A stretch of 64,000 nt of DNA. Origin: Deuterostichococcus epilithicus. Its lineage: Eukaryota > Chlorophyta > Trebouxiophyceae > Prasiolales > Stichococcaceae. Shown here one piece after another: positions 26,798 through 55,000 of this stretch (position 1 is the stretch's first letter; every line of letters starts with the position of its first letter). Position numbers and translations under genes: made by a program. A model generated the notes under the pieces. That model ran no database searches and had not been told where the DNA came from. It was given only the letters and a program-made list of their open reading frames with translations. Location of the stretch: NCBI GenBank assembly GCA_033439295.1, contig JAVTLE010000001.1, positions 1,240,001 to 1,304,000 on the forward strand, read 5' to 3'.

Positions 26798-26836
<39 letters not shown>

Positions 26837-28404
26837 GGGCTGGCCTAGCCGCCACGTGCTTGGCTTTGCACCGCCGCCGCCGCTGGCAAGGCGGTCCCCA
26901 CCGTCGCCCCAGGCCGCCTCACCGCCCCGGCGCAGCAGCCTGGAGGAGGCTGGTGCGTTTCTGGAGCCGCTGGCTGCCGCCCAGCACAAAACCACCCGTT
27001 CATGGCCATTAGGTCAGCTGTGTGCGGCGCCTCGTGTCACAGTGCGCCTCAAAGGTGCATGCCGACCCTGCGCCGGCCCCCGGCATTCACAGTCTGCCCG
27101 CCGGGGGAGCCGCGCCCAACAGGAGCAATACACACATGTGGCGCAAACAGGCTCATCCAGCTGACACTATCCGACTGACGCTTCCCCTCGTTTGTGCATT
27201 TCCCAGGACCCAGCGGCGCTGGCGCGGCGGACCGGCGGCGGCTGGGCGACGCCCTCGCGGCACTGGCGGCGGAGCGGGAGCGCGGCGCCCGGCTGGCGGC
27301 GCTGTTGACGGNGCGGCAGCAGGCGGCCGACGAGCGCGCCGCGCAGCTTCAGCGCCGCCTCGCGTGCGTCGCCGGCGAGGAGGCGGCGCTCGCCGCCTGC
27401 ACGCCCGCCGAGCTGGAGGCGCTCGAGAAGGTGACTTTCTGGAAATGGTCGGCCAGCAGCAACCGGGCTCCTAGACTGTGGATGCCGTGCCTCCGGCGGA
27501 ACTCGCCGCGTGCATGCTCGCAGAGTCGAGGGCGCTCGAGAAGGTGGGGATTGGGTTCCCGGGCCTCGTCTTTGTTTATGCATCCCGACTTTTGTGCTCT
27601 GGACTTTGTATCGGGTGTGGCACTCGGTCGCTTTGCAGAGCTGGGGCGCTCGAGAAGGTGTGGTTTGGGGTCTGCCAGCTCGCTCTTGGTCCGCTGGACG
27701 GCTGCATTCCGGGCATTGCACCAGTGGAAGCTGGGCCCGACGGGGGACGCCGCCCGCCTGTGCCGGTCTTAGAGCTGGTCACGAAAGAACATGTCGACAG
27801 TGAACATTCGATACGCCCCAGGAGCTGGAGGGCGGCATCGCAGCGGCACGGCGGGCGGCGGCGCACGCCGCGGCCCGCGAGGCGGCCGCAGAGTCCTCGA
27901 CCTGCTCCCTGTGCATGGAGCGCCCGCAGGGCGTCGTCTTTGGCTGCGGCCACCAGGCAGGCTCCCTTGTGCTTCACTCCCTGCAGTTCCACTCCCCTCC
28001 ATCCCCCTTCGGAGCATGCAGGCTGCAGGCGCATTGGGCTGCCGGCTCTGGCGACTGCCTGCACAGTGGACAGCCTCCAGCAGCACTTTCGCTGAGGCCG
28101 CCATGGATGCTGCGAGCCGAGGCGCTCGGCACTTGGCGCTTGCGGGCTGGAATCCCGGGCCTGAACGTGTAGCACTTTCAGAAACCTGCCTGTAGGCATG
28201 CCTGTGGTGTGCGGCTCACCTTCCGGAGGTGCCAGCAACCCGGTTGCCTCAGGTACTCGTTTATGGCATCAAGTGTAGTCTAACATTAACACTTCGCCTC
28301 CCGCTGTGTAGGTGTGCCCGCAGTGCAGCTCGCAGCGATGCCCTGCGGAGTGCCCTTTCTGTCGCACGCCCATCACCACACGTATCAACGTCTTCAGGAG
28401 CTAA
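22379..28404 (+). CDS. Kelch-repeat, coiled-coil, polyQ and C-terminal RING protein (putative E3 ubiquitin ligase)
   Basis: Eleven exons sum to exactly 1,174 codons: 22379-22862, 23037-23255, 23464-23622, 23815-24002, 24216-24467, 24669-25313, 25595-25738, 26034-27012, 27207-27430, 27822-27956 and 28312-28404. Residues 1-190 are Gly/Ser/Ala/Arg-rich. Kelch blades occupy about 190-540 (ERLYVYGGL, GKIWVAGG, GVVAFGGLG, LIIFGGVD, TMAVFGGR, LNDVWLLDVASWRW, RIAVCGGM). Heptad-rich, Ala/Glu/Arg-rich helices span about 600-790, then a Ser/Pro-rich linker with a CAG-encoded polyQ, and another coiled coil to about 1110. The RING is C-terminal: Cys1126, Cys1129, Cys1140, His1142, Cys1145, Cys1148, Cys1157 and Cys1160, ending ITTRINVFRS. 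I infer an E3 ligase with Kelch blades for substrate binding. Introns at 25739 and 27957 use GC donors. Several N bases fall in exon 24669-25313 and two in exon 26034-27012. Confidence 0.88.
26771..26836 (+). repeat. CAG tract encoding polyQ in the Kelch-RING gene
   Basis: An interrupted CAG/CCACAG run encodes about 20 residues, mostly Gln, in exon 26034-27012. It lies in the low-complexity linker between the two coiled coils. Confidence 0.9.
27492..27662 (+). repeat. Two intronic copies of the end of exon 27207-27430 with its splice donor
   Basis: The exon ends GGCGCTCGAGAAG|GTG at 27430. The same block recurs inside the following intron near 27534-27547 and 27648-27661, spaced about 113-114 bp. 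For the first copy the resemblance extends about 50 bp upstream (27493-27545 against about 27381-27431), with substitutions. For the second it extends about 35-45 bp. Both copies keep the donor GT. Confidence 0.85.
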
Positions 28405-29429
28405 TCAAGGATTCGATTTGTGCCCACCTCTCAAGAGAAGAAGCAAGGCCCATGGGCCACGAGCGTGCAGCTGCGACAACATGTCGGCGAGGTGTGACGG
28501 AGAGGGTGTGTGGACGGAGGGAGGCGGCACGCACGCGATTTTGAGGTTGTGTTTTGCAGAACTGCCCCGGTGCTCTCCCAGACGCATCAGAACTATGCTC
28601 AAACCTATGAACAGAATTGATCTGGTTGCAGTGACGAGAATCAGCGTTTGAGTTTCACTTCGGGAGTGCAGATCGTCTTCAGAACATGACGCTGGCCCTC
28701 CAGCTAGCAGCATGCTGCGACAATGTGGTCAACTTTTGGCAATCTGCACAAGGTCATGGCTGCAGAGCACGCAAACATGTGAGAACCTTGAATGGCTGGA
28801 CCTTGAATGGCTGGGCCGATTGGCGTCCGATTGCACCAACCATGAGACCTTTGTGTTCCTGATGAAGGGTGGACCTAATTTGACCGGAATCCAGGGATCA
28901 CAGACGTCAGTCACTGCTTGGTACCACATTACATCTTCCCGAGATGTAGGTAAATGCGTCGAGGCCTGCAGGGCGGAGCTCGCATCTTGTAGCTTTAGGC
29001 AAGCTGGGTGCTGCCTAGCCGAAGAAACGGAATGGAGCATGCGCAATTCAACCTTGAGTCTGTGCACAACCGGTTGAATTATGAAAGCTCTGAGCGGCAG
29101 TGCCCGCCAAATGGCATAGCAGTGTGGCGCCCGACTGCAAGTCTGTGCCCCACTCCGTCCCCAAGGTCCAGACTTTGTTCCCGAATCTGATCTGGCGCCC
29201 AGCTGTTCAAATGCCACCAACCATGCCTGGCGACCCCCAAATTTGATCCCCCAGCTGTGCGATGGCAGCAGCATCGCCTGTGCAGCCCCAAAACGAGCCT
29301 CCTGCACATCCTCCCCCTCACGGGCTGCCCCAGCAGCACCGCTGCTCTGCCCAGGCCCCGCTACCGCTGCTGGGGCGGCCCGGGTGTAGCCCGACGCCAG
29401 CTGCAGGGTCCCAATGCCCGATGCCCGCT
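28405..29429. other. Convergent intergenic stretch
   Basis: About 1 kb between the 3' ends of the Kelch-RING gene (+) and the 4E-T-like gene (-). A short direct repeat (CCTTGAATGGCTGG) occurs twice near 28788-28815. No supported gene. Confidence 0.45.
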
Positions 29430-30489
29430 TCACTGCATGCTTCGCAGATGGTCCTGCAGGCTCAACTGCGGCGGCTGCGCGTTGCCAGACGCGCCACCGC
29501 CAGGGTTCAGCGACCCTGGCGCCAGCGACCCGGAGGAGGCTTGCTGCAGCAGGCGAAGGAGATCGCTGGAGGCCCCATTGCCGCCGCCGCTGCCGCCGAA
29601 GGGGTCACCGCCGCCAAGGATGCCCGCCTGAGGCGGCTGCGAGGTGAACTGACCAACGCCCGGCACGCCGCCGGACGCACCCTGCGATGCAGCAGCATTG
29701 TGTGCGGGGTGAGGTTGACGAATCCTCAAGAAAGCAGGGTGCACAGCCTCCTGGCGTGCTGATTGGCATTTTCAGGTCTCAGCTGGCATTCGAGATCCAG
29801 GCACAGAGTTGGCCGCCCTGAGAAACGGCTGCACGCCTGGAACAGGTGGGCGAGTCCGCCGCCCGGCTGTTGCTGCTGCTGCGGCAGCGGCGCGCCGCCA
29901 TACCCAGGGTACCCTTGGAAGGATGCCTGCTGGCTGCTGCCCTGCGCCGACCTGTGCAGGCAGCGGCAACGGACGATTGGGTTCGAAATGGCTTTAGGTT
30001 GGCGCCGCCAGGAGAAGCAATGGCATCTCGTGCCTGCAGCAGCCGGGGGAGGGCATGGCCGCACTGGCAAGGAGCTACCATGGCGACAGCATGACAAAAC
30101 GGTCTGCAGCAAAGGTAGCGGCAGGGGTCACACCCCGAGCGCTGGAACAGCATGGAGTCCGGCTGCTGCTGGCCGGGCAGGCCTAACTGTGGTAGGCCCA
30201 GCTGCTGCATTGGCGGCGGAGTGCGCCGCTGCTGCTGTTGCTGCTGCTGTTGAACCTGCCGCATCTGGGGCCAGAGAGTGGGGTGTCAGCCAAATGGACG
30301 ACGCGGAAATGAGTGCTGAAAATGAGCTGGGGTAGCAAGTCTGGGCACCATCCGGATTTGCGCAATGTCGACTCGATCGCACAGCGCATTCTTGCGTGAA
30401 ACAGCTCTGCATACAAGAGCATGAACCCACCTGCTGCTGAAACTGCTGCTGCCGCAGCTGTTGCTGCTGCAGCTGCTGCTGCTGGAACG

Positions 30490-30537
<48 letters not shown>

Positions 30538-31917
30538 AGCGCTGCTGCTGCAGCATCTGGTGCTGCTGCGCCTGTTGTTGCTGCTGCTGCAGCTGCTGAG
30601 CCTGCAGCTGGGCCTGGTAGCGCTGCAGCTGCTGCGCCTGGTGCTGCGGCTGCAGGAAGGCCGGCGGGCCCGGCTGCTGCTGGGAGAAAGGGCCGCCGGG
30701 CGGCAGCCCCTGCTGCTGCAGCGCGGTGCCGGGCGAGCCCGGCGGCCGCGACGCCTGCTGCTGCTGCTCCAGCAGCCGCAGCAGCTGATCGGTTCCCTGA
30801 CAAGCAGCAGGTACAAGGTTTTGTGCTTGCCAAGGGAGGTGTTCAGGCTAGGCATCTCCCAGTCCCAGGTGTGAGATGGCCCTACGTGTTGCTTCATGTC
30901 TTGGTAGGGGGGAGATGCGGATGAGGTGGTGGCAGCCCAGACTTTGCCTGTGTGGCTGCATGCTCCTGGGGGGCGCATTCCACAGTGCAACTGTCCTTTC
31001 CCAGCCCCAGTGGGGAAGCACGGTGCCCTACAGTGGCACCAGGGGGAACGGCAAAACGACAGGGCACCTGGGGCTGCGAGAGGGTGGGCGGCGGGAGGCC
31101 GCCCGCGCCAATGGCGCCGCGTCCTTGCAGCAGCGACAGCAGCGTGTTGCCGCTGCCTGGCGGCGTGCCGACACCGCCGCCGAGGCCCGGCATCTGCTGC
31201 TGCTGCTGGAAGTGCTGCGGTAGGTCGTGCTGCGGCGGCGGCTGGCCGCGGCCCACGCCCCCAGAGTGCAGCTGCAACAGCGACTGCGGCAGGCCTGCGG
31301 CAGGAACGAGCACTGATGTCAAGTGATGCTCTCGCAAGTGCATGAGCCAGTCCTATGCAGTGAGTCTGCTGAGAACCCGCAGAACATCTCTGGCTCGGCC
31401 GAGGAACCAGCTGTGAAGCGATCGCCAGTCTCGGATACTGCACCTGCCCGACAACAACTCCTCCCCTCCTTCTGGCCACCAACATGAAATCAGCTCGGAA
31501 TCTAATCGCGCAGCCTCGTATTGGCCAGAGACATCGATTAAGAACCAGTTTCTCTGGCGGAATCACACCTGCCATTGTGCGGGGAGCGCCAGAGATGGGG
31601 CCGCCGCCGCCGCCCTCGAGCTCCGCCAGGGTGCGCGCGCGCACAGGCATCGCCGGCAGCGGCGCCGGGCCATCCGGCTGGCCACCAATAAAGCCGGCCT
31701 GCGACGCGCTTGGCTGCACGCCGCCGCCCTGTCGAGAGATCGAACAAGCATTTCGGGCATGCATACGCCGAGCTTCGATTCCCAGGAGACACAAAGCCAG
31801 GTTTTCGGCCTAGACATCGGGGTGGGGCCAGAAAACGTGGCTGACATAGCACTCGAGATTCTGTCCTGATGTGAGACTATAAAGACATGCACCTGGAAGA
31901 ACGCGTCAAAGCTGAAG

Positions 31918-31967
<50 letters not shown>

Positions 31968-36508: not shown

Positions 36509-38971
36509 ATGCATTGTGAGGGGGTGGCGCCGACGTGCCAAACTCCCCTCCATGCACGGCGGCTAGGCTGCAGCAGCTGGGGTGCGAAGTCGTGCTGGCG
36601 TGCCAGCGCCCAGATCAGGCAGCAGCAGCATAGGCAGCAGCGCGGCCGGCGGTTGTGCGTCATGGCCGCGGGGTCGCACGACGCAGCGCCGCCCATCATG
36701 GTCAACGCCTGCTCCGGCAAGGTGGCGCCTCGGTATCCTACAGAGACTCAAGGCACCCTGCGCAGGGTATTGGACTGCCGTTGAATCGGTCCACTCATCA
36801 TGTGCATCACCTTCCCTTGCGGCAGCTGGCGGATGTGCCCAATCTCGCATGGCCTCAACCTGGTTGTGTGCGGACCCTTCCACCAGATGGGCCACGCGAC
36901 GGCGGAGGCGGTGGTACGCGCGGGCCTGAAGCTGGTGCCCTACACCTTCACCGGCCAGTCGGAGGGCGTCGCCGTCGAGTCGATTGGTGTGTCTGGCATC
37001 CCCGTGGAGCTCATCCTCCCGGACGCGCGGCAGGCGGCCATGGAAAAGGCGCGGGCCTGTTGCCTCTGATGGCGCCTGCAGCTTGACGCTCTCGGATGTC
37101 GCAAGCTTTCGCTGATGTCTTGTTTGAGCCAGGGTCTTGCGTGGCACGGCATAGCGCTGCAGCAGTGTGGACGTTGGCAACGCAAGCGCTGATGCCGCAT
37201 GTTGTGATGTGCAGGTGAAGGCAGAGTACCCCGACATGCTAATGATCGACTACACGTTGCCGACAGCGGTGAACGGTGCGCCTGCAGCACAGTGCACATC
37301 CGGAGTGGCAGCCCCCGCGACCTGTCTGTCTTTGCATGCCTGCTGCCCGAAGGCCTTACCACACAGCCTCCCAATCGCCAATTGGGAGTGCTGGCCTGTC
37401 CGAAAACCGCATGTCAATTTTGTTACATACCTGCAGACAATGCACGGTTCTACTGCCACAACGGGGTGCCTTTCGTGATGGGCACCACGGGCGGCGACCG
37501 CGAGCAGCTGCTAGCCGATGTGCAGGGCGCGGGCACCTACGCGGTCATCGCGCCCAACATGGGCAAGCAGGTCCGCGGCCTTTCGATGTTTCCAAGGACG
37601 ACTTCGTGATCTCCCGGCGTCGGAAGTCTTCGAACTCCACTGCGGCACAGCGTTTGGAGAGCCGCCCTTGCCGGCTTACCCCAACGACGTTGTCGTGCAG
37701 CCGCCCAGGAGGCATCCTTCAGCCCGGCCCTGGAGACGCGTGTGCGCAGCCGCACAGCAGACGATTGCAGCCTGGCCCGCTGCAACTGAAGACGAACCAA
37801 TCGCCCGCCCTAAAACCCTGTTACTTTGGACCCGCAGGTGGTGGCCTTCCAGGCGACAATGGAGCTGATGGCGGAGCAGTTTCCGGGCGCTTTTGCCGGG
37901 TACACCCTGGAGGTGGTGGAGTCGCACCAGCGCACCAAAGCAGACACTTCAGGCACCGCACGCGCCGTCGTTGGTTCCTTCCAGAAAATGGGCCTCGACT
38001 TCAATGAGGTGCGCAGTTGAAGCCCCCCGCGACGAGGGAGGGGAGTGACATGGTACTTTTAGGCGTTTAGGCGTCAAGGGCGCGGCGTGGTTGCCTCTGT
38101 CCAGAAGATGGGCCTCGAACTTACCGTGCGCCCATGGACTATGTTTCAAACTTTCGCCCTGCTGAGCACGCTATTGTCGATGCTGAAGAGTGGAACCCGC
38201 GCGGTGGTTGGGCAATAGAGATACACCCGAGCAAGCAGGCACGTCACCTTCTGCAGTTCAGTCAGGCTGGGCCGTACTTCGACAGTGCAGCGCCTCCATC
38301 ACCGCGGCTCCTGCTCCTGAAGCCCGTTGGGAGGTTGGATCTCAGGTCGGGCTTGCTCTGCTACCGTGCCACAGGACCAGATCGAGTGGGTGCAGGATAG
38401 TGTGGCAGATGGACGCAGCGCATTGTTCAGGAGATGGTGATTGAAAGTTTGTTCAAGCAGGTCTTCCTGTTGCCGTGTCGCAGGACCAAATCGAGCGGGT
38501 GCGGGACAAGTCGCGGCAACTGGACATGATGGGCGTCCCGGAGTCCAACATTGACGGCCACGCCTTCCACACCTACAGGTGTAGGGTCCGTAGCTTGCAT
38601 GAAGATGCGAGGGGCTGCTGCTGACAGACAGAACGCAAGCTTCGTGCACCTGCAGCGCCGCCTGTGCAGGCGCCGTGCATCGAGGCGTCATCTGCTGCTG
38701 CGCTCGCGCGCATCCTGTCTCGGGAATTGTGCAAGGTGCCCGCTTGAAGCGTTGCGCACCGTCTGAGGCTGCCTACGTGTGCTGCAATCGCAGCCTGCTG
38801 TCGCCGGACAAGTCGGTGTTTTTCAGCTTCACGCACAATGTGTGCGGGCGGGACATCTACGCAGAGGGCTCCGTGGACGCCGCACTGTTTCTGGCGCAGC
38901 AGATCCGAGCAGGCTCCGACAAAAAGATCTTCAACATGGTGGACGTTCTGCGTGCGGGCGCGATGCGATGA
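36509..38971 (+). CDS. dapB: 4-hydroxy-tetrahydrodipicolinate reductase, plastid form (lysine synthesis)
   Basis: Seven exons (36509-36721, 36887-37048, 37215-37275, 37437-37570, 37838-38008, 38484-38578, 38794-38971) give 337 aa. Residues 1 to about 50 are Arg/Ser/Gln-rich and poor in acids, fitting a chloroplast transit peptide. Then come MVNACSGKMGHA (nucleotide-binding Gly motif), LMIDYTLPTAVN, GVPFVMGTTGGDR and ESHQRTKADTSGTARAV, with the active-site His220 and Lys224 of the plant form. The protein ends HNVCGRDIYAEG and FNMVDVLRAGAMR. The enzyme reduces the DapA product with NAD(P)H in the lysine and diaminopimelate route. The intron at 37049 starts AAG|GCGCGG (GC donor). The intron 38009-38483 contains copies of both flanking exon edges. 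Confidence 0.96.
38097..38410 (+). repeat. Copies of both flanking exon edges inside one dapB intron
   Basis: Block 38097-38132 resembles the end of exon 37838-38008 plus its donor (CCAGAAGATGGGCCTCGA and GTGCGC shared). Block 38353-38410 resembles the acceptor and start of exon 38484-38578, that is 38463-38520 (CAGGACCAGATCGAGTGGGT against CAGGACCAAATCGAGCGGGT). Both are same-strand, diverged by substitutions and not in a usable frame. Confidence 0.85.
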
Positions 38972-39393: not shown

Positions 39394-42300
39394 TCAGCTC
39401 GGCAGTGCGACAGCCTCCAGGTCCGCTTCTGTCAGCCCTTCTGCCGACTGCACGCTCCAGTTCCGCTCGCCCTCGCTGCCCTCCTGCCCAGCAGCCAGTG
39501 GCTGCAGCCGCAGCACCTCCTGGTGGAAGCGCACCTGCAGTCCAGGATCGAGCACCGTGATTCGGCGATATATAGTAGCAAATGGTCGAACCTCCCTCCA
39601 TCTGCGAGGCTGCTCGCCATGACATCCCGCAGCAGTAGATGTGCCGCAGAACGCATCCTGGGTTGGTTTGCAGGCATAGGGCTGAATGCGCAGACCCCTG
39701 TGCAAACATGCATCAATTGCAGGGCATCGCAGCTGCAGACGGCACCTTTGCCGACCAGCGTGCATCAGGCCGACAGGCAGCTGCGTTCGTCCAGTGAATT
39801 GTCCAAGAGCTCGCCAGACACAAACGGATTCATGGCGACAGACACTGACCAGCGAGGGCCGGTGGCCAACACTGACGAAGGTGATGCCGGCGCCAGCAAG
39901 CGCCTTGTAGAGCGACGCCTCATTGGCGGTGTCCAGCGCCGACGTCGACTCGTCCATCAGCACCAGGCGTGGCTTGGACAGCAGCACCCTGCAGACGGCA
40001 GAGTTGCCCTGTTCAAGTGCTGTCGTTTGGAGCTCGGTCGCGTGCGGAGAGACTGTACCACTGAAACCAAGTCCTTCTGCTGTGCCTCACAGCCACGGCT
40101 TGTGAGTGCGCCCCGAGTGAATCAGGTCACTAGTCGACTCGTGCAGCCTAGCGGCCATAGGCCGAATGGTCGTACAGGTCATGCATTGCAGTATTGCACC
40201 CTCCGGATCCCATCACAGACCACATCATCTTTCTACTTTGTTGGTGCAATCCTTGCAATCCTTGAACCGCGATCCTTGCGAAGTGCGATCCCTTCTCCCC
40301 CTTCATCCTTGATCCCCCTTGATCCCTCTTGACCCACCTAGCGACGCAGCGGCATTCACGAGGACAGACAACGTCAGTCAAGCGACACACCTGGCGAAGG
40401 CGAGCCGCTGCTGCTCGCCCAGCGACAGGATGCTGGCCCAGTCCTGCACGACGTCCAGGGCGGCGGCGGCAGATCCGCTGTCGCTGCCGTTTCCGCCGCC
40501 GCCGCCGCCGCGCTGCCGCGTCAGCAGGCCGTCCAGCCGCACAGTCGCCAGCGCCGCCGTCAGCTCGGCGTCGCAGGGCGGTGGCCGGGCGGNNCCGGCC
40601 GCCGGCGTGTCATCACCCTCTGAAGAGGCGCCGTTCTGGCCGCTGCGGCTTGCGGCGGCGCCGCCCTGCACGCTGGGGCTGCCCGAGTCTGCTGCCGCGC
40701 CGGTTGTTGCGTCGCCGCCGCTGGCGCCATTGCTGCTGGCTCCACCGCTGCTACAAGAGGTGTTCAGGTCCTTGAGATGAGGCAGTCACTGCCAGCTGTG
40801 ATGGTGACGTACAGACAGGGCTGGTCGAGACGCGAGGGGCGAGAGGCGTGCTTCCGGCAGACATGCCTGTACAGCGACAGCTAGAGTTCTCCTGACCTTT
40901 CTGCAGCTCCGCCAGCCCAGGTGGGGTACAGCAGCTGGTCGCGCAGGCTGCCGAGCACCATGTAGGGGCGCTGCGGGAGGAAGAACAACTCTCCGCCGCC
41001 AGAGCCCGCCGCCACGGGCCGCCCCGCGCGCCGCACTGTGCCACGGCCGGCGTTCCACAGCCCCGCGACCGCGCGCAGCGTCGAGGTCTTGCCGGCGCCA
41101 GAGGGGCCCACGATCAGCAGCGACCGCCCCGCCCTCACCTGCATGAGCGGGGGACACAACGGGCGAGGCTCACCCTCTCCAGCGCTGTCCGGTATCGTCC
41201 AAGACATGTCATCTGCGGGCGCTGGCTTGGTCGTGTGGCACCCCAGACGAGCACCCCAGAGCTGTGACCCGGCACACAATGCAGACAAAGCCGCTGCTGG
41301 GCCCGGCTATTTCTGTGCACAAGGTAACAACACGAGAGAGGTTCCCAGGCAGCAATAGGCTGCCAGGCTGCAGACTGCATTGCGTGTCGCCAGACAAAAT
41401 GAGGACCTGTAGGTCCAAGTTCTGGACGAGGGTGCTGCCGCCGTCAGGCGTGCGCAGCGTCACTCTGTCCAGCTCCAGCAGCACATCGCCACTGCCGCTG
41501 CTGCCATTGCCGCCGCTGCTTCCTGCCGCCGCCGCCATCTGGCTGATCTGGATGCGCTCCCCCAGGGCGAAAGCCACTGCCGCTGCTGCCGCCTCTGACA
41601 CTGCCTCCGGTGCGTCTGGGCCACTGGTCGCCACCGGTGAAGAAGCGGCAGGTGCTGCACCTGCCGCGCCGTCAGGCTGCGCGGCGGCTGCCTGGGCGGC
41701 CTTCGGTGCATTGACAATCTCGTCGAACTCGCCCAGCCGGTCGATGACAGCGCTGAAGCTGGCCAGCGACTCCAGCTGCGCAGCAATCGATGAGACGTCA
41801 AGCTCGTTTTCAACATCAGCAGAGCCACTGCTGTTGTGCACCGAGTCACTCACAGAGTGAATCATCAACTGCGAGTGTGCTTGTCCCTTGCAGCAGGAGC
41901 ATCCAGAGTAACAAGGCTTGCATGTGCGAAGTTTGAGCAACCGTTCCATGACAGATCCGCAGCAAAATCGCAGCTGTGTACCTGGTAGACAACGAGGGAG
42001 ACGTCGGATAGGATATGATTGAAAGCTGAGGAAGACTGGTTGATGACGCCAAAATCGATCTTGCCCTGGAAGTACAGTGGTGCGACCACCGCCGACGGCA
42101 GTATCTGGATCAGGAACCTGCGCGTGTTCCAAACTGCTCTCACAGCTCCGCGCCAGCAGCAAGAGGAGCAGAGCAGCCGTCATGGCTCGGTAAGCAATGA
42201 GCTGCAAGGCGGGTTGACGCTGCTGCGGCTGCCTGCACCGAAACTGTGTTCGCAACGGGGCAGGCTGTGGCTGCAGCATGGTGGGGCCGTGCCCTTCGGC

Positions 42301-44776
42301 AGCCGATATAAAAATCCTATCCGCTGCTTCTTGCAAGCAGTCGTGACTTGCGCACCCTGGTGGTGACTTGCGCACAAGCGCAAGTCCGGCAGATGCATAC
42401 AATAGGTAGAAGGACAGCCAGGGAGCAGGGGCGTCATCACGTCTTCTACTTACACACGGATCGAGAAACGAGCCTACCTGTAGAAGGAGGTAAAGAACTG
42501 CAGGTTGCGCGACGCGATCAGCAGCTTCGCATAGTTGGCGACGGCGGCGCCGAGGCGACGGCCCAGCAGTCGCTCCTCGGACCCCTCGCCGCCGTAGAAG
42601 GCGATGCTCTCCGCGTTCTCCCTCACCCTCACCAGCCCATACCTGGCTTATGGCAGGCAGCGTCGACTCCATGCACAGAGGTATCGACAGAAGAGTGCAA
42701 CACGACTTCCGTGATATGCTTGAGGTGCAGACTCGTGCGTCATGAGCACGGCGCCGTGGCGCCGCTGCTGGGCACCAGCGCTGCCAGTAAACGCACTGGT
42801 GCACCTTCACAGCAGGCGTCTGAGGCGCTGGTGATGCTACCAACAGATCACCCCTTGAACCCTGATCCCTGACCCCTGAACCCATTCAACCTCAAAGATC
42901 CTTCCAGGCTCAACAATTTATCAGCCCTAACTGCAGAAGAAGCCCACCTGAAGTTGGCCTCCTGCGCCTCCTGCGCGAAGTTCAGCCCCACCAGCTTGCG
43001 GCCCAGGAACAGCGACACGCCGGTGCCGCCGAGCGAATACACCAGCAGCGCCACGAACAGCGGCGGGTAGATCGAGTACAGGATGCCGGAGAAGGAGATG
43101 AGGTCGATGCCCGCGTTCAGCAGCACCATGCTCAGGCCCAGCGCCGTGTCGGTGAACTGCCTGAAGGTGTCACATCCGAGATGGCTAGAACCGCGGCGAG
43201 TGCCCACAATGCTATCTGTATAACAGATCATGTGGGGCTCAGATGCATGAGTTAAATGCAGCTGCAGCCTTGGCCATTCAAGTATGCGGGGTTGATCACC
43301 ACTGTCCCCTGATCGGGCAATCTTTCTCTCTGGCGTATGTACACCTGATGTCGGAGGTGATGCGCTGCTCGGGTTCCAGCAGGCCGCCGCAGTTCGCACA
43401 CACCTGGCAGAACAGGCAAACGCTGTCGACAATATGCACCTGATGTCGGAGGCGATGCGCTGGTCGGGGTTGTCCAGCAGGCCGCCCGCCTGGACCTGGT
43501 AGAAGGTGCGGTCCGCAAAGTACTGCGCTGTCAGTCGCTCTGTCATCCACTCCCGCCACTCCAGCGCCAGCTTGCTCTGCGGTGAAAGGAGACTGGCATT
43601 CGTGGATCTGAGCCGGAGCGCCGTCAGATGCCAATGCCCAGGCTGTGCACAGCGCGACCGTTAGCACAATGCGACTTGCTTCTGAGCAGCCGTCGTGTGC
43701 ATGTGCTGTACTGCACATATCTTCTCGATGCAGGACAGTCCCTGGCGCGGCTGGCAGGCAGCGCTGTGAGTGGACTGAAAGTGCAGGGTTTACTATTTTA
43801 GGGTCTAGGACGACCGTGCCTGGTAGTAGTCCCGGAACACGAAGACCGGGATGCCAGCGCAGAGCGCGCACAGCCACTTGATCAGCATCTCAGTGAACTT
43901 GTCCACGTCCTTATTGGACAGTGCCGTGAAGAAGTCGCGACCCAGGAAGTTGAACAGCACGCTGTGGCGGCACGCAAACACCCTCGTTATGCATGTGCGC
44001 GGACACACTGGGACACGTTTGAGCACCGCAGGCCGTTGCGGGCTGCCATGGCCTCCTTCTTATAAAGGAAGTGTGCGCTCGGACGTCGTAACATTGGTTT
44101 GATGTCTCATAAACGCGTATAAACCAGCACTGATGCTTGAGACAGGAGCCGCTGATCCATCTGATGTCGCACACCTGACACCAGTTGTGCCCAGGGTGAG
44201 AGCCACGACGCCTGCAAGCTTGATCTTTGCGCGGTCATTCGTCTCATCGTCCAGCCAGTAGGGCATGCCGAGCTGCAGCAATAGGAGGCTGTCAGCCGAG
44301 ACTTCACATCAAGGCGGCTTGCATTGAGGTGGTAGCCGCTGTGACGCAGCTGCTGGATTTATTTTATATGATTCTGAAAGCCACCAAGGATAGCCACCAA
44401 GAACTCAACAGACTTGCAAACAACCCAAGATTCGAAAGGTTCCTGCCTTCAGCAGGCGGCCCCAGATGACGGAAATATCTGTAGAGGGACCCTCATCCGC
44501 CAGCTCGATAGCGCTGCTCCCCTCCTCCTTGCCCTTGGCGTTCTGATCTGCCTTGCCGGCATCAGCACGGCACAGTGCGGACTTTGATGCCTTTCTGAAC
44601 CGAAGCGGGCTCCTCGCTGTGCACATGTGGGCGTGCACAGGCGCAGGCAGCGGCCCTATGCATCGGCGAAGCCCTGCCGCATGCGCTGGCCCATGACCAC
44701 CAACTGCCGGCTGAGAAATTAAATGAGGCCCTCTCGCAACCGGTGCTACCATAGCACCCGTGCCGTGGCTGTACAT
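39394..44776 (-). CDS. ABCD2: ABCD-type (SbmA/BacA-related) ABC half transporter, probably plastidial
   Basis: Twelve exons sum to 822 aa: 44447-44776, 44175-44272, 43820-43961, 43440-43576, 42948-43160, 42478-42642, 41982-42117, 41407-41775, 40897-41138, 40391-40747, 39850-39988 and 39394-39534. About 80 N-terminal residues are Ala/Arg/His/Ser-rich and look like a plastid leader. The membrane domain has ALTLGTTGVSVLFNFLGRDF, WREWMTERL, DNPDQRIASDIR and ENAESIAFYGGE, the peroxisomal/SbmA-type signature. The ATPase has Walker A GPSGAGKT (about 541-548), signature LSLGEQQR, Walker B LVLMDE and the switch His in SVGHRPSL. A low-complexity Ser/Gly/Ala insert (exon 40391-40747) separates FLPQRPYMVLGSLRDQLLYP from the signature. 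Plant ABCD2 is the nearest type; its substrate is unknown. Introns at 43819 and 44446 start with GC. Confidence 0.93.
42850..42893 (+). repeat. CCCTGAA-rich tract in an ABC transporter intron
   Basis: The motif CCCTGA(A/T) recurs about four times in this stretch. It resembles a degenerate CCCTAAA telomere-type repeat but has no exact copy. Confidence 0.5.
43341..43416 (-). repeat. Intronic copy of the end of ABC transporter exon 43440-43576
   Basis: On the minus strand this block repeats about 70 bp of the exon end and donor. It carries GGCGGCCTGCTGGA, CGAGCAGCGCATCACC and CTCCGACATCAGGT, with substitutions and a small deletion. It lies about 20-95 bp downstream of the true donor. Confidence 0.88.
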
Positions 44777-45173: not shown

Positions 45174-48100
45174 ATGGAACGACGACACTCCGCATACAAG
45201 TCAGCTGGCGCGAGCAGCGCGGCAGTCGGCGCAGACAGACGAAGAAACCAGGTGACGCTGGTTGCGCTGCATGATGCGGAGCTGCACATGGCGGCGCATG
45301 TCAGCCGTTGCCAATGATCGAGGGGCCTGAATGCTTCACAGGTGCTGGCGGTCACCAAGGAGCGGCGAGACGCGCTGTTGCGCAGCAAGCGGCTGCGGCG
45401 GGAGCCCACTGACGGCTCGGGCAGTGGTGCCGCCGATGGCGCAGCCGCATCTGGCGGCGGGGCACGCCAGGCTGTCTCGGGACCGGCGCTGCTTGCGGAA
45501 GTGCAACAGGCGGTGGCAGCGCTGCAGCAGCAGAGAGTTGTCGGCAGCCAGTCCCACCTGGATGCACTGCGGCGACTCCGCAAGTATCTGTCCACTGGTG
45601 AGGGTCCATGCAAGCATGGCAGACGGGCCCTGGTCCCCGCAGCTCTGACTGCTGTTGTCTTTGACCTTCAGTTGATATGCGAAAAGAGAATATCAGGCGA
45701 AACAGAATCCAGTCTTGTTGTTGATCGGAGTCTCGCATGCATTGCAGATGATCAGGCGCCCTGCCAGGCGGCAACACAGGCCGGCGCGGTGCCGCTGCTG
45801 ATCAAAGCCTTGCAGCCAGCTAGGTGATGATGGTTGTCCCCATCGTGCGAGCTGCGCCAAGTATCTCCGGCACACAGCCGAGCTGTCCTTGCGGCAGGCT
45901 GATCTTGCCCTGGCCACCATCGAGCCTGTCCTCTTCTGCTCATGCACCACTTCTAAATGAGCGTAGCACAATCAGCGACGAGGGAGCTGCGGCAGTGGCG
46001 GCGCTGGAGGCAGCCTGGGCGCTCACGAATCTGGCAGCGGCTGACCACGAGGTGGCGGGCGCTGTGTTGCCGGCAGCGCCGGCGCTGATCCTGCACCTGG
46101 CTGGTGGCAGTGGCATTGCGGTTGCACAGCAGGCCGCATGGGCATTAGGTGAACCTGAGCATGGCAGCACTGCTGCGGAAAGTCAGCTGCATGAAAGCAC
46201 GACGGTCAATCCTGGCAAATGCGACGTCTGATACATATGCGCTGTGTGACCGCGCCTGTGGCAGCCCACAACCATGCCTGCAAGTCAGCCATCATGGGCA
46301 CAGTCTCCTCGTGCCGGGCATCGAGCCCTTGCTTGATTGCCACAGCCCCAACTACTGCTTGACCTTTCATGTGCTCTCACTGCAGGTAACCTGGCGGGCG
46401 ACTGCGCCGATTTCCGGTCGACGCTCGTGGCGAATGGCGTGCTGCAGCCGCTGGCGCGGCTGGTCACTGCGCCCGTGGCGCCGGGCGCTATGCCCACAGG
46501 CATGGATGTTGCGGCAGCTGCCACAGGCGCCTGGGCGCTGTCCAACGTTGTCAAGGGCGCCGGCTCGGAGGTGCGCTGAGCGTTTCTGGCATCCATGTGC
46601 CAGTTTTTTTGGGGGGGGGTGCAATCATGATTTCCTGCTTTCAAATCTCTCCAACGGGTCCTGAGAAGCAGAGCTCCCTCTCAACATGGCCCATGGGACA
46701 GCCTGCACCCTCAGCAGCTGTTGATGCCACTGCTCGCAGAGTCCATCACATTGCTCCTCTGGCACACGCCCACAAGTTGGGCCACTGCCAGTGATGCTGG
46801 GCTCTGCAGATGCGCCACCCGCTTGAATAAACAGCTTCCAATCCAATGTGAACCAAACACGCGTGCAGTGTTTAAACCAAGTAGCCCCTATAGGGTGGGA
46901 ACATCCTCCGCAGGTGGGGCAGCTGCTGGCGGTGCCGGGCGCAGCAGAGGCGCTGGTGCGGCTGCTGGCGCCCGAGGCGGACGCGGCGCTGGCCTCAGAG
47001 GCGGCCTGGGTGCTGACCTACCTCACCGCGGGTTCGGAAGGGCACCTGGCGCGGCTCGCACAGGCGGGGCTGGTGCCGCTGCTGCTCGACCGCCTCATAG
47101 GTGACTCGCCCCTCGCATCAGGAAGGAATCCACCCTGCGGCGGTGAAGCTCGAACAGGAAGCCGGGAGCATACGCCTGCTGCCGCACTCGCAGGGTCGAC
47201 AGCTCATTTCATGGCTCGGTCAAGGAACGTGTTCTCAACAACGCAACTGGCGAGCAACTCGTGGCCTGTGCATCACGCATGGTTTGCCGCACAGGGTTTG
47301 ACGGTGCTGCCCTGTGATGCCTGCGGACAGCGGCGGCGCCGGACCAGGCGGCAGCGGAGGCGGCGGACCGGACCCTCCTCACGCCGGTGCTGCGGACAGT
47401 GGGCAATGTGGCGGCCGGTGGCGGAGCGCCTGCCATCTCGCAGCTCCTCAGCCATGCCTCAGGTGTGGGCCTGTGCCTTATACGGCCGTGGGTTGGCGGC
47501 TTGCGCTGTGCAGTGCCGAGCGCCCCGCACAATCCGAGCAGTGTGCCTATGCCTGCTGCAAGTGTCTGCCGCAAAGTCGCGCAGCAGAGCTGCTGTCCTG
47601 TGCGGGCAGCAGGGGCATACGTTGACACACTTGCGCCTAAGGACATGTGACACAGCTCGTTGCCTTTGGCGCAATGCAGGCGCGGCGGTGCCGGCGCTGC
47701 TGCGGTGCATGCAGAGCGCGCACCGCGGGCTGGCCAAGGAGGCTGCCTGGGCGGTGTCCAACGTTGCCGGGTCGCCCGGGCGTGCCGGCGTGGACGCCCT
47801 CGCTGCCGCCGGCGGCGTGCCCGTGGTGGTGGCCACGCTCAAGGAGTCGGCATTCGACATCCGCAAGGAGGCGGCATATGCCCTGGCCAACATATGCGCA
47901 GGTGGCTGGATCCGGGGAGTTTTCTTCAGTTTGGGGTCCAGAAGCGGTGTCTGTGCGGCATCGATGCAAAGCACATCGTCTCGTCATTGCCTCGCAGCCT
48001 GTGTCAATCTCTCAGCAATATTGACACAGTGTCAGGGAGCAGGGCATCCAGGTGTGTGGCACGTGACAGGCTCGCATGCGGCCTGACATCGCGCCCCGCC

Positions 48101-48718
48101 TGCACGCAGGCGGCGGCGCTGGGTCGGGCGACCCCGAGGCGCTGACGGCTATCGTGGGAAAGGACAGGGCGGCCCTGGAGGCGATGCTGGACCTCATTAG
48201 GTGAGCCATTCGGGTCGGCTGACCATCTGCCGCAAGCCTCTGAGATGATACACTGGTGCTAGGTGTGCAGTCAGGGTGTGAGAGCGGACGCAGGGCTGTC
48301 ATGATGCTGTCCCTTCGCTGCATCTTCAGACTCTTTGCTGCTCGCCTGCCGCAGAATACAGTTTGTCGAGGTTGTTCGAACTTTGTGCAGGTCGCCAGAC
48401 ATGGACGCGGCGGCGCTGGGCGTGCAGTTTGCAGAGATGGTGCTGCGCGTCATGCCTCGGGGGCCCGCCGCCGTGGAGGCCGCCGACGGCATCGACGCCC
48501 TCGAAGCGCTTCAGTTCAGGTGGAAAGCGTGACAGGCGGAACGCCGTATTCAATGGGACAGCCTGCACCATCTCAAGCATTGATGTTGAGCAAGGGGTGA
48601 CGAACCGGGTGCCAAACCGCCTGGCTGCCTGCCGCGCAGGGGACCATCGGATCTGCAGACGCTGGCGACCGAGCTGGTGGACCACTATTTTGGAGACGAC
48701 TATGGCCTCGACGAGTAG
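45174..48718 (+). CDS. Importin subunit alpha
   Basis: Eleven exons give 538 aa, normal for the family: 45174-45251, 45342-45597, 45748-45823, 45967-46148, 46386-46570, 46914-47100, 47331-47462, 47680-47901, 48110-48200, 48391-48519 and 48640-48718. The basic N-terminus (MERRHSAYKS, DRRRNQ, KERRDALLRSKRLRRE) fits the importin-beta-binding domain. Armadillo repeats follow with the hallmark motifs AAWALTNLAA, QQAAWALGNLAGD, ATGAWALSNVVKG, SEAAWVLTYL, LRTVGNVAAG, AAWAVSNVAG and KEAAYALANICA. The Trp/Asn ladders of these repeats bind nuclear localisation signals. The C-terminus is acidic (DHYFGDDYGLDE). The protein links cargo to importin beta for nuclear import. All ten introns are GT-AG. Confidence 0.95.
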
Positions 48719-49093
48719 AGGAAGATTTTGATTCGGACTGAGCCAGTGCGACTTTTGAATTTGTGTGCACGTGCGTACTCGGATGCTCACCATGCAACGG
48801 CAAACTTGCTGGCGGGGTGTAGTCCAGGAATCAGAGAAGCAATGTTTGTCCCTGAGGTGTTGCGTTGAAGATCTCTGACGCGGTTGTCTATACATAGTTT
48901 ATTGGATTTGGCGCTTCTAGAAGATCAGTTCCAACTTGCCTTCCACGTCACACGCAGTCTGCCTCGCAAGTGGACTGATCCGGAACAACATCACTCTCCG
49001 GCAATTGATGACAGCTCCGGTGTACCGTACCGTTGCTGAAAGAATGGCTGAATCTATTGATACAAAGTGGTGCCGCCTGTGCGGCCTCAGTAG
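48719..49093. other. Convergent intergenic stretch between importin alpha and XPB
   Basis: 375 bp between two stop codons. It is relatively AT-rich, with no supported gene. Confidence 0.45.
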
Positions 49094-52000
49094 TCATCGG
49101 CGCATGGCCTTCTTGAAAAGCGTTGAGTGCTGCTTCCTGCCGCCGCCGCCGCCGCCCCGGCCACGGCCCCTGCCATGGCCTCCGGTGTCGTATTCCATGT
49201 ACACCTGCGATCGGCAAAGCATATCTGCTTGGATGGGCAGTGAGCGCAGTCGGGAGTGATGCAGCCTGAACAATGCAGAAGCGAGGACTGGTGGGAGGAC
49301 TGCCGCGGCGCTGAGCCGCCGGCCAGCACCCAGGAGCAGCTGCCACGAGCTCTGGTGATGAACAGGTCATGCAGTAAACAAGATCTGTGGTCGGCTCCTG
49401 CACGAAGGCAGCGTGCAGGAGTGCCCGGGGGGGCCACAGCGNNCCAGGCCGCCGGCGCCAGACATGGCAGCAAGGGAGCCCTGCGTGCGGCGCACAGCCC
49501 GCTTTGCGACGCCGACGTCGTCCATCACCCCATCATCCTCCTCCGCCTCTGCCACCTCCCCCTCGCTGGCCACCAGCACCTGGCAATCAAGGCGGGACTG
49601 AACGCTGTGGCAATTGTATGTGGACTTCACGCTGTGCCAAATGCATGTGGACTCACATGCGCTTGACTGGTGCATCTTATTGTGGCAGAGTCAGCAGGCT
49701 GCCGCCGCTGGAGCCGCCAGGCACACCGTGCCCGGGTGGACCCAATCACTCAAGCAGAATCTAAGCCGGTTGGGTGATGGCTGTTGCAAGCATCGACGAA
49801 CCGACGCACCTGGGCCAGCAGGTTGACCTGCTCCTCCCTCGTCGAGTACAGCAGCTCTGCGCCGCCTGCAGAAAACATAGAAATCCATCATTGAAAGGTA
49901 GAAGAGCAGACAGCCACCGGCTCGCCGGCCCCAATCCGGTGTGCATGGTGCAGCGAGGAGGCTGCAGCGCAACGCCAGGTTTTGCCAGGTACATGCCCAG
50001 TCCAAATTGTTCAGCAAACCCTCCCAACAAAACGGTCTGCTGCACGAATTCCCCCACAAACATTCTCCTGAGATAAAAGCGCACCCGCGCTGTCCAGCAG
50101 GTTGGTGATGACCTTGAAGGCGTAGCCCTGGTCGATGAGAAACTGCTGCCGCTTGGTCGAGTAGTACATCTCCTGCGTGTCGGTGGACACCAGCGTGTAG
50201 AAGAAGGCGTTGTACTCGTCGTGCCCCGGCGCCGCGCCCGGCTTCGCCTGCAAACAATCAAGAATCGATCACAAATACTCGTGTCTCGAACTCCCGATCG
50301 CAGCCGAGTAAATTCAGTACATGCGGTGCGAACGAGTGCCAGGCGCGCCGGGCGTTTGGCCCAATCCCGCAGTAGATGCCCCCTGGGGGCGGAGACAGCG
50401 TGTTTCATGGGGCTGAACGCGCAGCAGCAGGTTCGATGGTAGGAGAAGATTACGTGGCTGCACTTTGTTGTGGAGGAAAAGTCCCGAGCACCATCGGTCA
50501 CGGAGGCAAAGGCAGGGCAGACCTTCTTGGCACGCAGGATGCGGCCGAGGCGCTGCGCCTCTTGCCGCCGCGAGCCCGCGTGGCTGCTGATCTGAATGAG
50601 CACGTTGGCCTCCGGGATGTCGATGCTGTTGTCGCCCACCTTGGACAGGAACAGCGTGTTTATCTGCGTGAAGGGGACACGAGGACTTAGTAAAATCAGC
50701 GCGCACATGATCCGCGGTGTCACAGGCATGCGATCTGGTGGTGGGACGCAGGCAGAGGCAGCAGCCGCGGTGCCTGGACGGCATCTCGCTCCAAGATGAC
50801 CACAGCACAACAGACGGGTCACATGTTGCGGAACCTGTTCGTGGGATGCGGCATCTTTGACAGCGGCGAAGGAGACACCGGGGCTGTGGTTGGAGGCGTG
50901 CAGGTCGCAATGTGCGCAGCAGGCCTTAGGGTTTGCAGTTCTCCTGCTCTGCAGAAGCCCCCCGCCGCGATCAACACATGGAAGCGGGTTGCGACGACAG
51001 GAGCCAGTTAGAGATGATGGAAGCACCTCCTGGCAACCTCGAGACGGGCGGCGAAGGGGAGGCACCTTGGGGTTGTGTTTGAAGGTGTGCAGGATGCGGG
51101 TGCGCTCCGCGTGGCTGGTGCCGCCGTAGATGCAGGGCTTCCGCAGCGCCTTCGCATACTGCATCAGCGCGAAGATGTTGTCGCTGAAGACGATGATCTT
51201 GTCGCCACGCACCTGCGGGTGCACTCAAGCACAGCGAGTCGACCGACGGACAAGCAGCGGAAGACGGAAGTGCCGGCCGGGAGCGTCCCAGCAGAGCTGA
51301 CGCCATCAACCAGCTTTTGAGAATGTCCGTGTCGTTAATAATGTCAGGCTTTGACAGGCCGGCAGCGTGTACAGTCGTTGCTAGGGCAGCCAGCAGCGGG
51401 CACCTGCCTTGCTGCTGCCTTGCTGCCGCGGGGAAACCGCAGGATCTATAGGGGGGTGACGGGCAAAGGGGTTACAAAGGGCGCACCTCCTCGTGGTACT
51501 GCACCAGGAACTGGCAGGCCTGGAACTTGTTGGGGTTCATGACGTACAGCAGCTGCCGCCGCGCCGCAGAGTCCAGGCGCAGGTACTCGCGCATAAACTC
51601 CCGCGTCATGGGGCACCACACCTGCGAAATGGGAGATCGGGCAATGCCGTCAGACCAGATCCCGCATGAAAAGTTCAGGTAGCCGCAGCCGTTTGTTCAC
51701 AGAACTTTTGTTTGGTCCCAGGCCGAGGTATTCCTGCATGGACTGCCGTGTCATGGAGCACCGAACCTGCAGCCGCAGCAGCAGCCAAGGTCGTCAGAAC
51801 ATGGAACTCGGAGAACTTCCGCACCATGGGGCACCTCCCGACCTGGCAGCCAGCGAAACCCCTACAATCCCATCTGAAACGTACCGTCAAGTCACAGGGC
51901 GTCTGCGGAACAGCGGCAAACAAGCACAGGGATAGTGGGCATCAGCTGCGCCTGACAGAGTGACAGGCAGGCAGGAGACTCTGGCCTGGACCCTTGGAAG

Positions 52001-55000
52001 CGTGCAGCGGCCGGCGCCTCAAAACCAAAGCTAGCACTGTGGCACGCGGCGCCGCGGCGGCACCGCAACGGCTGCGAGGAGAGCGCGCACCTCGGCACAC
52101 TGCACGTTGGCGATGTGGCCGTCGCGCGTCAGGTCCAGCCAGTTGGCTTCGTAAAGCTTGGGGCCTGCAGCAATGGGAGGAGAACGGTACCAGTGATGCA
52201 ATTTAAACCCCGGAGTACGAGGGTGATCGGTACGAACTCTAAGGCGCATATTGGGACCAGCACATCGGCGGTGAAAGTGCATTGGAGACTGGGAACTGGC
52301 ATGTGCAGGCGTCTTGTTGTTTGACACTGCAGATCTCTCTGTGCCGACATTTTGCAGATGCATGCACACCCCACCAACGGAAAGAGTGAGCCGATGGCTG
52401 CTCCGTTGATGTACATGCACATGTGTGCACAAAACTGCAATGACACCGACCGGAGTTGACCTGAGACTTGCGTCAGAGTGCTAACCGATGAAGAAGTTGA
52501 GGTCGGAGATGCGAGTTGCATGACTGAATATTTCTTTAATCGAGTTTTGATAGATCGGGTCTTGGTCAGACCCCCTACCGATGAGGAAGTTGAGGTCGGA
52601 GATGCGGTCGTCCTCGCGCACCAGCGTGGCGGTCAGCCCCAGCTTGGTGTGCGCGTGGATGATGCCCACCACCCGCCGGAACATCGCCGCCGGCACCACG
52701 TGCACCTGCGGGTGACGACGGGACGGGGTCAGCGGAGCTGGCTGCGCGCTTTGGGGTGCTCCGACCTGAATTGCCCAGTCTCACAGGGGAATGTTTTTGC
52801 ACCGCGCGGGGCCCTCCTCCGCAGGGCAAGGTTGTCCTGCCAGGAACTCCGCACATGCACGATGTATTATGCAATGACACGGCTCAAACTCCCTGGACCG
52901 ACCCGACAATCGGCATGTATCAAGTCATGCAGCGTACCTCGTCCAGCAGGATGAGGCCCCACTCCCGCGACTGTATCTGCTCCATCACCTGCGGCGGCAT
53001 CGAGCCAGGCTGTTTAGGCATCCTGTCAACCACATGAGGGCTGGAATCATACAGCTGATGATGCATCCTCACAAGCACCATTGCGAGCTCCTCGGGCCCG
53101 CGCTGCTGAATCGAAGTGCCGAGGATCATTTGCCCAATGCGCCTCTCTGGGGTGGCCCCCGGAGAAGGCATCATCCTCACAGAAACTGCCGCGCGCCCCC
53201 GAGCCATGGATTGGACATCAGATTCTCGTATCTGGGTGATAGGACTGCAGCGACAAAGGGAGACGCACCCGCTGGGCCTCCTCGGACCGGCGGCCGGAGA
53301 AGGCGATCATAGTGTAGGTGGTCACGCACACTGCCGCATCCGTCGTGAACATCTCCTTGTGCTCGCTGGTGAAGCGGGTCACCTGGCGCATTGCACAGCC
53401 AGTGTTTGTACAATCCTATCAATATACAATTCTGAATGTCGCAGGGTCGAGAACCTGCTGCGCTTTGGCGGGCGTCTGCGCCCAGCTGCTAAAACGACCC
53501 GTTTGACACAGCAGCTGCGGTGACTGCTGGGCACGGCAGCTAGAGCCGCCGCACGACACACAGACAAGGGCAGCACCAAAAAGGGGAAGCAGCAGAGCCG
53601 GGGATGTGAGCAAGGGGTCGCGCCTGCTCCTGCTGCAGGGTGGACCACAGGGTGAACTGGTAGCGCCACTGGTCCACGCTCACGCTGTTGGTGCACAGCA
53701 CAAGGCAGCTCTTTTTGATGCGCGCCGCTGCGCTGATACCTGCGAGGCAACCATGTCAGGGCTCGTGGCCAGCAGGATAGCATCGGCAGCCAGAACCACA
53801 GCATGATAAGGGCCGTGCGGACGCATCCCTTGCAAGCTGATGCGCAAGCACTGCCGACTGCTGCTGCGCTGATTCCTGCGATGCTGCAGGCATGGGCATT
53901 GAAGGGCCGCCCTGCTTGCCAGGGGCTGGAGAGGATGCCAGATGGTCAGGTTGTATGACGACCAGATAAGACACTCTTGACACAGGAGCAGACATGCAAC
54001 ACGTGATGCTGACACAGGAAGCCGACGTGAAACGGAGTGCGCACCCACGAGGCTCTTGCCGGCGCCGCAGGGCAGCACAATGATGCCCGAGCGCGCCCGC
54101 CCATTGCCAAACATTTTGCTCATGGACCGCGCCTGTAATCCCGTAGTACTTGCCGGTTGAGGTTTAGGGTGTTGGACTTCGACTTGTGATGCGGCAGCAC
54201 GCCACCGTGATGCTAGGGCAGATGAGAGCAGATGAGCCGAGGGCGGAAGCAGGCCCGCAGCGGGCTTGATGAGCAGGCGGCTTGAGACGACGCTCAAACG
54301 AATCCAAGGGACGTGTGCACAAGAGGGTGATCCCCTCGGAACCCATGGGACATGTGCACAGCAACCGCGAAGCGGGCAGCAGCGCCAGGGGGCGAACAGA
54401 ACCGCGAGAACCGCACGCACCTGGAAGGGGCGGTGGACCACGGTGGGCTTGAGGTCGATGGGCAGGTGCGGGTTGACGCGGTCGTTTTTGAAGTCGTACT
54501 CCTCCAGCATCGGGTAGTTCAGCCCGCCCGGCAGGCAGCGCGCCTTCACGTGCTCCACCTTCAATGCAAGACTTGTAACAATAATAACAATGATAATAAT
54601 AACGATAATAATAATGATAATAATAATGATAAAAAAGATTAGCCCACCCGGCAGGCGGGGCGCCTTCACATGCTCCACCTGCGCGGGTCCGCAGAGCGAG
54701 TCAGGAGACTGGACCTGCGTCAGGCGCCAAGTGTTGTATGTGGTCTAGGCGGCTGCACAGTTACTCGGCCCAGGATCCTGGCAGTGGCCGCAACATGCCG
54801 CAGATGGACCACCAAGGGGCGAGGCCGATCGACCGGCAGAGGAGCGCCACATGTTGAAGGGTTTCGGGAATGCTCAAGGTGTGAACCCCATCCCTGTGCT
54901 TTGCGTGCTCTGCGCTCCCAGCCGGAGGCACCAGGCACTGCCCATGAAGCTCAAGAAGAGCTCCACACACGTGTAAGCCGGCTGCAAGGAGCGCGATTCC

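Follow-up and report, generated by a model that had tools for sequence, protein, structure and literature searches.

In the Rogers model, reportedly the subject of work by Hellsten et al. in 2011, introns are gained through tandem genomic duplication, and paired nicks in plants are said, following Schiml et al. in 2016, to lead to local tandem duplications. To our knowledge, duplications arising from overhangs or offset nicks have no preference for exon borders. In algae, introner elements, which have flanking repeats, account for mass intron gain or enlargement. Tandem genomic duplication as a route of intron gain is presented in a review (PMC3443670) and in the case of the potato RdRp gene (PMC4974935). 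For the neointrons of Daphnia, the account in PMC4202315 ascribes repeats of 4-17 bp to staggered breaks, those of 4-12 bp being common to intron and exon. PMC8355091 connects CST-Pol alpha-primase with the small tandem duplications that form where breaks bear overhangs. Here we describe a related trace in the green alga Deuterostichococcus epilithicus, where introns carry same-strand copies of the edge of the adjoining exon; it came to light in a stretch of 64,000 nucleotides of contig JAVTLE010000001.1 (positions 1240001-1304000), hereafter called the window.

The window is part of a 46.8 Mb assembly of 21 contigs; it has a G+C content of 61.7%, is dense in introns and contains 25 N. Together with the 100 kb upstream ("big", with negative positions) and six 10-kb stretches from other contigs (L-numbers) it forms a sample of 224 kb, for which a self-trained, RNA-free hidden Markov model (HMM) gene finder gave 59 genes and 395 introns, 393 of them with both flanking exons. 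Modelled donors are close to CAG followed at the junction by GTGCGC, and acceptors to (C/T)GCAG followed by G. The 377 introns of 60-3000 bp were compared with the 60-bp edges of their exons (match +1, mismatch -1.1, gap -3/-1; cut-off at least 16); in 45,240 shuffled exon-edge/intron comparisons 40 reached 16, two reached 18 and none reached 20 (maximum 19.1). Same-strand copies at or above the cut-off were found in the adjacent intron for 11 donor and 17 acceptor edges, 28 in all, which corresponds to about 7% of modelled introns, or roughly 1 in 14; about 0.7 of these 28 events are expected by chance. Rotation of introns among genes yielded 0.3 donor and 0.15 acceptor matches per set, shuffled pairs predict about 0.5-0.7 overall, and the intron on the wrong side of each exon gave no match for either kind of edge (0/183 and 0/183; 0/366). 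Exon middles matched in 2 of 366 cases, and the reverse complement in no donor and three acceptor cases. In the window alone 10 of 208 tested edges reach the cut-off, with about 0.2 expected. The events are spread over 17 of the 51 intron-bearing genes and five of the seven sampled stretches (the main contig and four of the six other contigs). An equal abundance of copies in unrelated introns, which the original prediction had named as grounds for giving it up, was looked for with the shuffled controls, and the finding survived. Exon-edge copies in neighbouring introns are confirmed as real, and they are broader than first noted.

The same picture emerges from repeat scans. With low-complexity sequence masked, 164 kb contained 24 direct repeats scoring at least 22 at lags (distances from edge to copy) of 30-600 bp; near 3, 6 and 9 kb the counts were 1, 1 and 0, and three repeats were inverted. 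An unbiased scan of all 224 kb found 28 direct pairs, 19 of which join an exon-border segment to the interior of the neighbouring intron. Two more pair a near-border exon segment with an intron, two look by eye like events in mis-modelled places, and the remainder are four intergenic pairs, one exon-exon pair and no intron-intron pair.

The genes and copies of the window are as follows.

23472..28404, + strand: gene model of a Kelch and RING protein (HMM finder; Pfam Kelch domains in the first 301 residues, RING by eye).
27382..27433, + strand: true exon end and donor of the Kelch-RING gene, source of two copies (one donor-edge event).
27495..27546, + strand: first Kelch-RING donor-edge copy (lag 113; score 31.0, exon part only 28.0).
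27635..27690, + strand: second Kelch-RING donor-edge copy, from the alignment (lag 228; score 22.5, exon part 17.9).
36662..38971, + strand: gene model of dapB, dihydrodipicolinate reductase (Pfam DapB_N/DapB_C).
38081..38128, + strand: dapB donor-edge copy of the exon end at 37961-38008 (lag 120; score 23.3).
38358..38414, + strand: dapB acceptor-edge copy of 38467-38525 (lag 109; score 27.9).
39394..44049, - strand: gene model of an ABCD-type half transporter (phmmer to ABCD entries).
43337..43412, - strand: ABCD donor-edge copy of the exon end at 43432-43504, from the alignment (lag 95; score 36.6).
46770..46815, + strand: armadillo-repeat-like gene (named by eye), acceptor-edge copy with its source at 46908-46953; weaker (lag 138; score 18.7, exon part 16.9).
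49094..57143, - strand: gene model of the XPB helicase of TFIIH, with 20 exon segments (phmmer to human XPB).
50863..50917, - strand: XPB donor-edge copy of 51048-51105 (lag 185; score 24.1).
51718..51801, - strand: XPB acceptor-edge copy of 51573-51657 (lag 145; score 29.8), with suggestive intronic homology (P 0.09).
51816..51836, - strand: claimed second XPB acceptor-edge copy, marginal (score 15.7).
52467..52513, - strand: XPB donor-edge copy of 52561-52606 (lag 94; score 30.4).
54636..54680, - strand: XPB acceptor-edge copy of 54516-54560 (lag 120; score 25.7 masked, 30.4 for the exon part unmasked).
63483..63520, - strand: helicase-like gene (named by eye), donor-edge copy with its source at 63586-63621 (lag 103; score 23.6).

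Eight of the nine places first proposed, in what were then taken to be four genes, hold up. For the donor edges the exon parts score 28.0 and 17.9 in Kelch-RING (27493-27547 and 27615-27662), 22.3 in dapB (38097-38132), 32.8 in ABCD (43341-43416) and 25.9 in XPB (52480-52517); for the acceptor edges they score 19.3 in dapB (38353-38410) and 24.0 and 30.4 in XPB (51723-51773 and 54641-54680). The ninth, at 51816-51836 in XPB, is not established on its own. All named copies lie, as had been stated, on the same strand and in the intron that adjoins the copied edge. Three window cases had been missed (the XPB copy at 50863-50917, the armadillo-like one at 46770-46815 and the helicase-like one at 63483-63520), and since two of them are in further genes the genes affected are six. 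The spliced XPB model aligns to human XPB over residues 8-762 (phmmer E 2.6e-248), the ABCD model runs through its tested border (phmmer to ABCD entries, first 237 residues), and Pfam domains are present in the dapB, Kelch, ORC4 and polyprenyl synthetase models; the true exon borders are therefore well placed in these genes.

It should be noted that one event, L012 8547, is a poor case (a coding-like repeat with a lag of 69) which was counted among the 28 and dropped from the tandem-rejection and spacer-versus-intron tests (n = 27), and that two likely events (big -87063 and -73153) were left out of the 28 because the models appear to be wrong there. At L004:6847-7060 (big -73153 to -72940) a gene, purple-acid-phosphatase-like by its motif, has apparently been split by the finder and an exon-edge copy taken as an exon; this is likely to be a further acceptor-edge event with a lag of 121. 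Such copies are a hazard to gene finders, because their splice sites and exon ends look nearly authentic; by eye, two loci seem to have been mis-modelled on their account.

Edge and copy are 69-189 bp apart in the 28 events. The aligned exon part measures 25-60 bp in 26 of them (24 and 85 in the other two), and the spacer between edge and copy 40-100 bp in 22 (range 6-131). The splice dinucleotide is GT or GC in 9 of the 11 donor copies (chance 0.17), and AG is found in 8 of the 17 acceptor copies (chance 0.06). GC in place of GT begins 34 of the 393 modelled introns, though the finder was set to expect 1%; the true donor is GC in three of the 11 donor-edge events, and by eye the copy is GC there too. 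None of the 28 copies continues into the next exon, so that spliced mRNA was not the template. Introns that bear copies (27) are longer than others, with a median of 352 versus 214 bp. Subtraction of the lag makes their lengths background-like (P 0.11; gene-matched 0.15), whereas subtraction of the copy alone leaves a departure from background (P 1e-5; 7e-6); insertion of a copy into an old intron without a spacer is likewise disfavoured by length (P 0.013 for all introns and 0.0007 gene-matched, with a weighting of our choosing). Spacer and copy thus most likely came together, next to an already existing intron, and the data support the copies as lengthening established introns instead of making new ones.

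This bears on the proposal, part of the original prediction, that introns are born here through tandem duplication and have been caught in the act; in the Rogers/Hellsten type of birth an exonic AGGT segment is duplicated in tandem. An exon segment with its splice site is indeed doubled. In a birth of this kind, however, the new intron has an upstream exon-end copy at its 3' end or a downstream exon-start copy at its 5' end; none of the 28 copies is so placed, the copied junctions being interior and 69-189 bp from the edge, and the introns minus the insertion have a normal length. We find this reading scarcely credible. What stands of the proposal is that duplication of a splice-site-bearing exon segment enlarges introns, as the length test and the copied dinucleotides indicate, while plain tandem duplication fits only about seven of the 28 events. 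An assembly artefact, which the 25 N of the window might suggest, deserves almost no credence: the copies are 4-32% diverged with mutation-like decay, and they occur on the main contig as well as on four of the six other contigs sampled.

The explanation we find most plausible, and hold tentatively, is that breaks at exon borders have recurrently been repaired in a way that duplicated local sequence and added filler; the copies would be the remnants, and old introns would have been enlarged in the process. An event would start with two offset nicks or a staggered break across an exon border; filling of the overhang on both sides would double the segment, and filler would be joined between the two copies. 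Each event would bring a net gain of about 70-190 bp beside an existing splice junction, made up of the spacer, in most cases 40-100 bp, and another exon-edge copy (about 25-60 bp) with its splice site and usually just a few intronic bases. Because the outer splice site would stay in use, the intron would swallow spacer and copy and grow, and the copy would then decay neutrally; a minority of events would be plain head-to-tail duplications. The data show that the copies are real, run in the orientation of their source, lie next to it and include the splice site, that introns gained length, that decay looks neutral and that most events lack recognisable intron homology; that breaks were repaired, and that filler supplied the spacer, we infer. 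As with a staggered break, direct repeats flank unrelated inserted sequence and the net gain equals the lag. The spacer resembles the rest of its own intron at P<0.05 in three of 27 cases.

A simpler alternative is the plain tandem duplication of one border-spanning unit followed by neutral decay, in which the exonic part alone stays recognisable because the exon is constrained. The copies are same-strand only, as head-to-tail duplication has it, and the junction is nearly always included, as viability requires. On the intronic side, sequence past the first bases resembles that of unrelated introns; in seven of the 28 events, against about 1.4 expected, intronic homology exceeds the controls at P<0.05 (big -83851, -81107, -51277 and -52901; L013 5503; window 38374 and 50876), and there are weaker hints at window 51766 and 63485. 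The dapB acceptor-edge pair shares 17 intronic bases (intron extension P 0.008), and Kelch-RING is a triplet whose two copies have intronic bases in common. In most events, though, the intronic half of the unit is not doubled: a simulation in which the intronic part is duplicated too and has diverged about two times as far as the exon copy is rejected (Fisher P 4e-16, 27 events), as it is by eight of the nine young copies (P below 0.05), even ones about 90% identical. The copied exon is shorter than 60 bp in 27 of 28 events although the lags are about 115, and no intron-only pair scores at least 15. To rescue the tandem model, intron-derived DNA would have to lose similarity about ten times faster than exon-derived DNA, and the few tandem cases, by eye, show no such difference. 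We regard plain duplication as a rather unlikely explanation of the set as a whole.

The distribution of repeats is strongly bound to borders. At lags of 60-200 and scores of at least 15 there are 30 intron-junction pairs versus 0.4 in controls; exon-junction pairs number 7 versus 0.8, exon-exon 6 versus 1.4, exon-intron 4 versus 0.8 and junction-junction 3 versus 0.6, and by eye the exonic pairs are mostly of repetitive coding composition. Intergenic pairs number 5 versus 0.8 and are by eye mostly short tandem repeats. Short intergenic tandem repeats with lags of 34-50 bp are found in the window at 474-547, 4721-4838 and 19092-19209. The outer ends of coding sequences (CDS; 49 + 49) gave a single match, at an acceptor-like edge in a mis-modelled gene, and 0 + 0 once this was set aside; at the splice-edge rate about 3.6 matches would be expected in the 98 tests, so this is a hint only. 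With 30 intron-junction pairs and no intron-intron pair, despite what simulation predicts, the border preference in this sample is real, and duplication with filler does not account for it.

Several points weigh against break repair with filler. Break repair as such is expected to be blind to exon and intron, and simulated border-blind duplication gives about 1.0-1.45 intron-only pairs per edge event, yet at lags of 60-200 intron-intron pairs number 0 versus 1.0 in controls at scores of at least 15 (1 versus 1.4 at 14), against the 30 at junctions. No source of the spacers was found in the 224 kb or, for four event introns, genome-wide. On the acceptor side the 3' end of the intron has to come from the spacer and be functional, a requirement that random filler would fulfil only now and then. 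In the full set of 28, finally, a copy reach of 2-25 intronic bases fits (P 0.52) and one of 2-6 does not (P 0.02), so that some intronic duplication is allowed.

The same border preference is what would be expected if copying were linked to splicing or transcription: where exon-intron junctions suffer breaks or stalls, with a paused polymerase or RNA-DNA hybrids as possible causes, the adjacent exon would be the template for repair. Border damage marked by these processes would be repaired by copying the exon edge to just past the splice site. The ratio of 30 to 0, the rarity of matches in exon middles and their absence from outer CDS ends agree with this, as do the young events (copies at most 13% diverged), in which a copy end 2-6 bases past the splice site fits (P 0.69) and 2-25 is rejected (P 0.001). 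But these young events are a small set of nine, the fit over all 28 goes the other way, the outer CDS ends provide few tests, and intergenic pairs are not wholly absent. We know of no mechanism that copies exon borders through splicing or transcription, and such copying seems to us rather unlikely, if worth keeping in view. If true, it would have spared intron interiors and largely also intergenic DNA, and, if the 28 events in 224 kb are scaled up to the whole genome, would have lengthened introns on perhaps about 6,000 occasions.

The copies decay as dead, neutral-like sequence, the exon being the constrained partner. Exon and copy differ about equally often at the three codon positions (0.178, 0.159 and 0.202); the differences are unclustered and comprise 72 synonymous and 142 non-synonymous changes and 18 gaps. 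Retention of the splice dinucleotide is, by our own arithmetic, about what neutral decay would leave; together with the even decay this gives no sign of maintained function, such as the use as decoy or alternative splice sites that the original prediction had considered. Selection on the copies as decoy splice sites or splicing enhancers might be suspected, as the dinucleotide is often intact and the copy is more alike than the surrounding intron. Two changes create stop codons, however, AG is missing in nine of the 17 acceptor copies, and dinucleotide retention does not exceed the neutral expectation, so functional copies strike us as very improbable.

Other origins were considered and set aside. 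Slow decay through gene conversion of the copy by the exon is contradicted by differences that are not patchy, and recombination of diverged alleles by the lack of a marked synonymous excess (72 of 214 differences). A transposed or introner-like element finds no sequence family among the spacers (27 compared, 224 kb). For an inverted templated insertion, the reverse-complement matches are 0 donor and 3 acceptor, and the spacer compared with the reverse complement of the rest of the intron gives P 0.72. Searched against the 224 kb, the spacers of at least 20 bp (27 of 28) matched only themselves, bar one microsatellite and two short partial matches, and a whole-genome search with four event introns returned, at its sensitivity, no second copy besides the exon itself. 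The spacer of the XPB acceptor-edge event at 54636-54680 (window 54561-54635) is an ATT/ATC-type microsatellite.

Two side loci are worth recording. Long-chain acyl-CoA synthetase-like paralogues (by eye) at L017:746-3944 and in L018 have, again by eye, only one of eight intron positions in common, which suggests large intron turnover; because the intron positions of the L018 paralogue are largely different from those of the event gene, the event is not datable by paralogue. At L002:447-1011 and L002:3406-3977 there is an inverted duplication of about 570 bp, 88% identical, with shorter flanking matches, its two halves lying about 3 kb apart.

Intron lengthening and turnover are poorly known because their traces vanish. 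Here the exon beside each copy is held by selection and shows the original, so that the trace left in about 7% of introns is datable. Local duplication at the borders of exons has left this trace repeatedly; the trace is real, and its near-restriction to borders is strange. If that preference is mutational and not one of survival, a process that reads exons and introns writes to the genome, which standard break-repair models do not predict.

Set beside the described systems, these events resemble Rogers-type gain in the same-strand doubling, within a gene, of a small piece of exon that carries splice signals; they differ in that Rogers-type gain makes a new intron ending in the copy, whereas the introns described here were already present, have been lengthened and hold the copy in their interior. 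Introners have a common sequence and the spacers do not. A filler spacer, as we propose it here, would be a point of difference from duplications at overhangs and offset nicks. With these duplications, as presented in PMC8355091, the copies share a same-strand, local arrangement. The Daphnia neointrons of PMC4202315 likewise have direct repeats that flank an insert and are shared with the adjacent exon, in lengthened introns, but in that account the repeats are short and the exon repeat is found at the other end of the new intron, while our copies of about 25-60 bp lie in established introns. A literature search limited to titles and the beginnings of abstracts turned up no account of copies like these. 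They are a variant on the known theme of local duplication, set apart by their near-restriction to exon borders.

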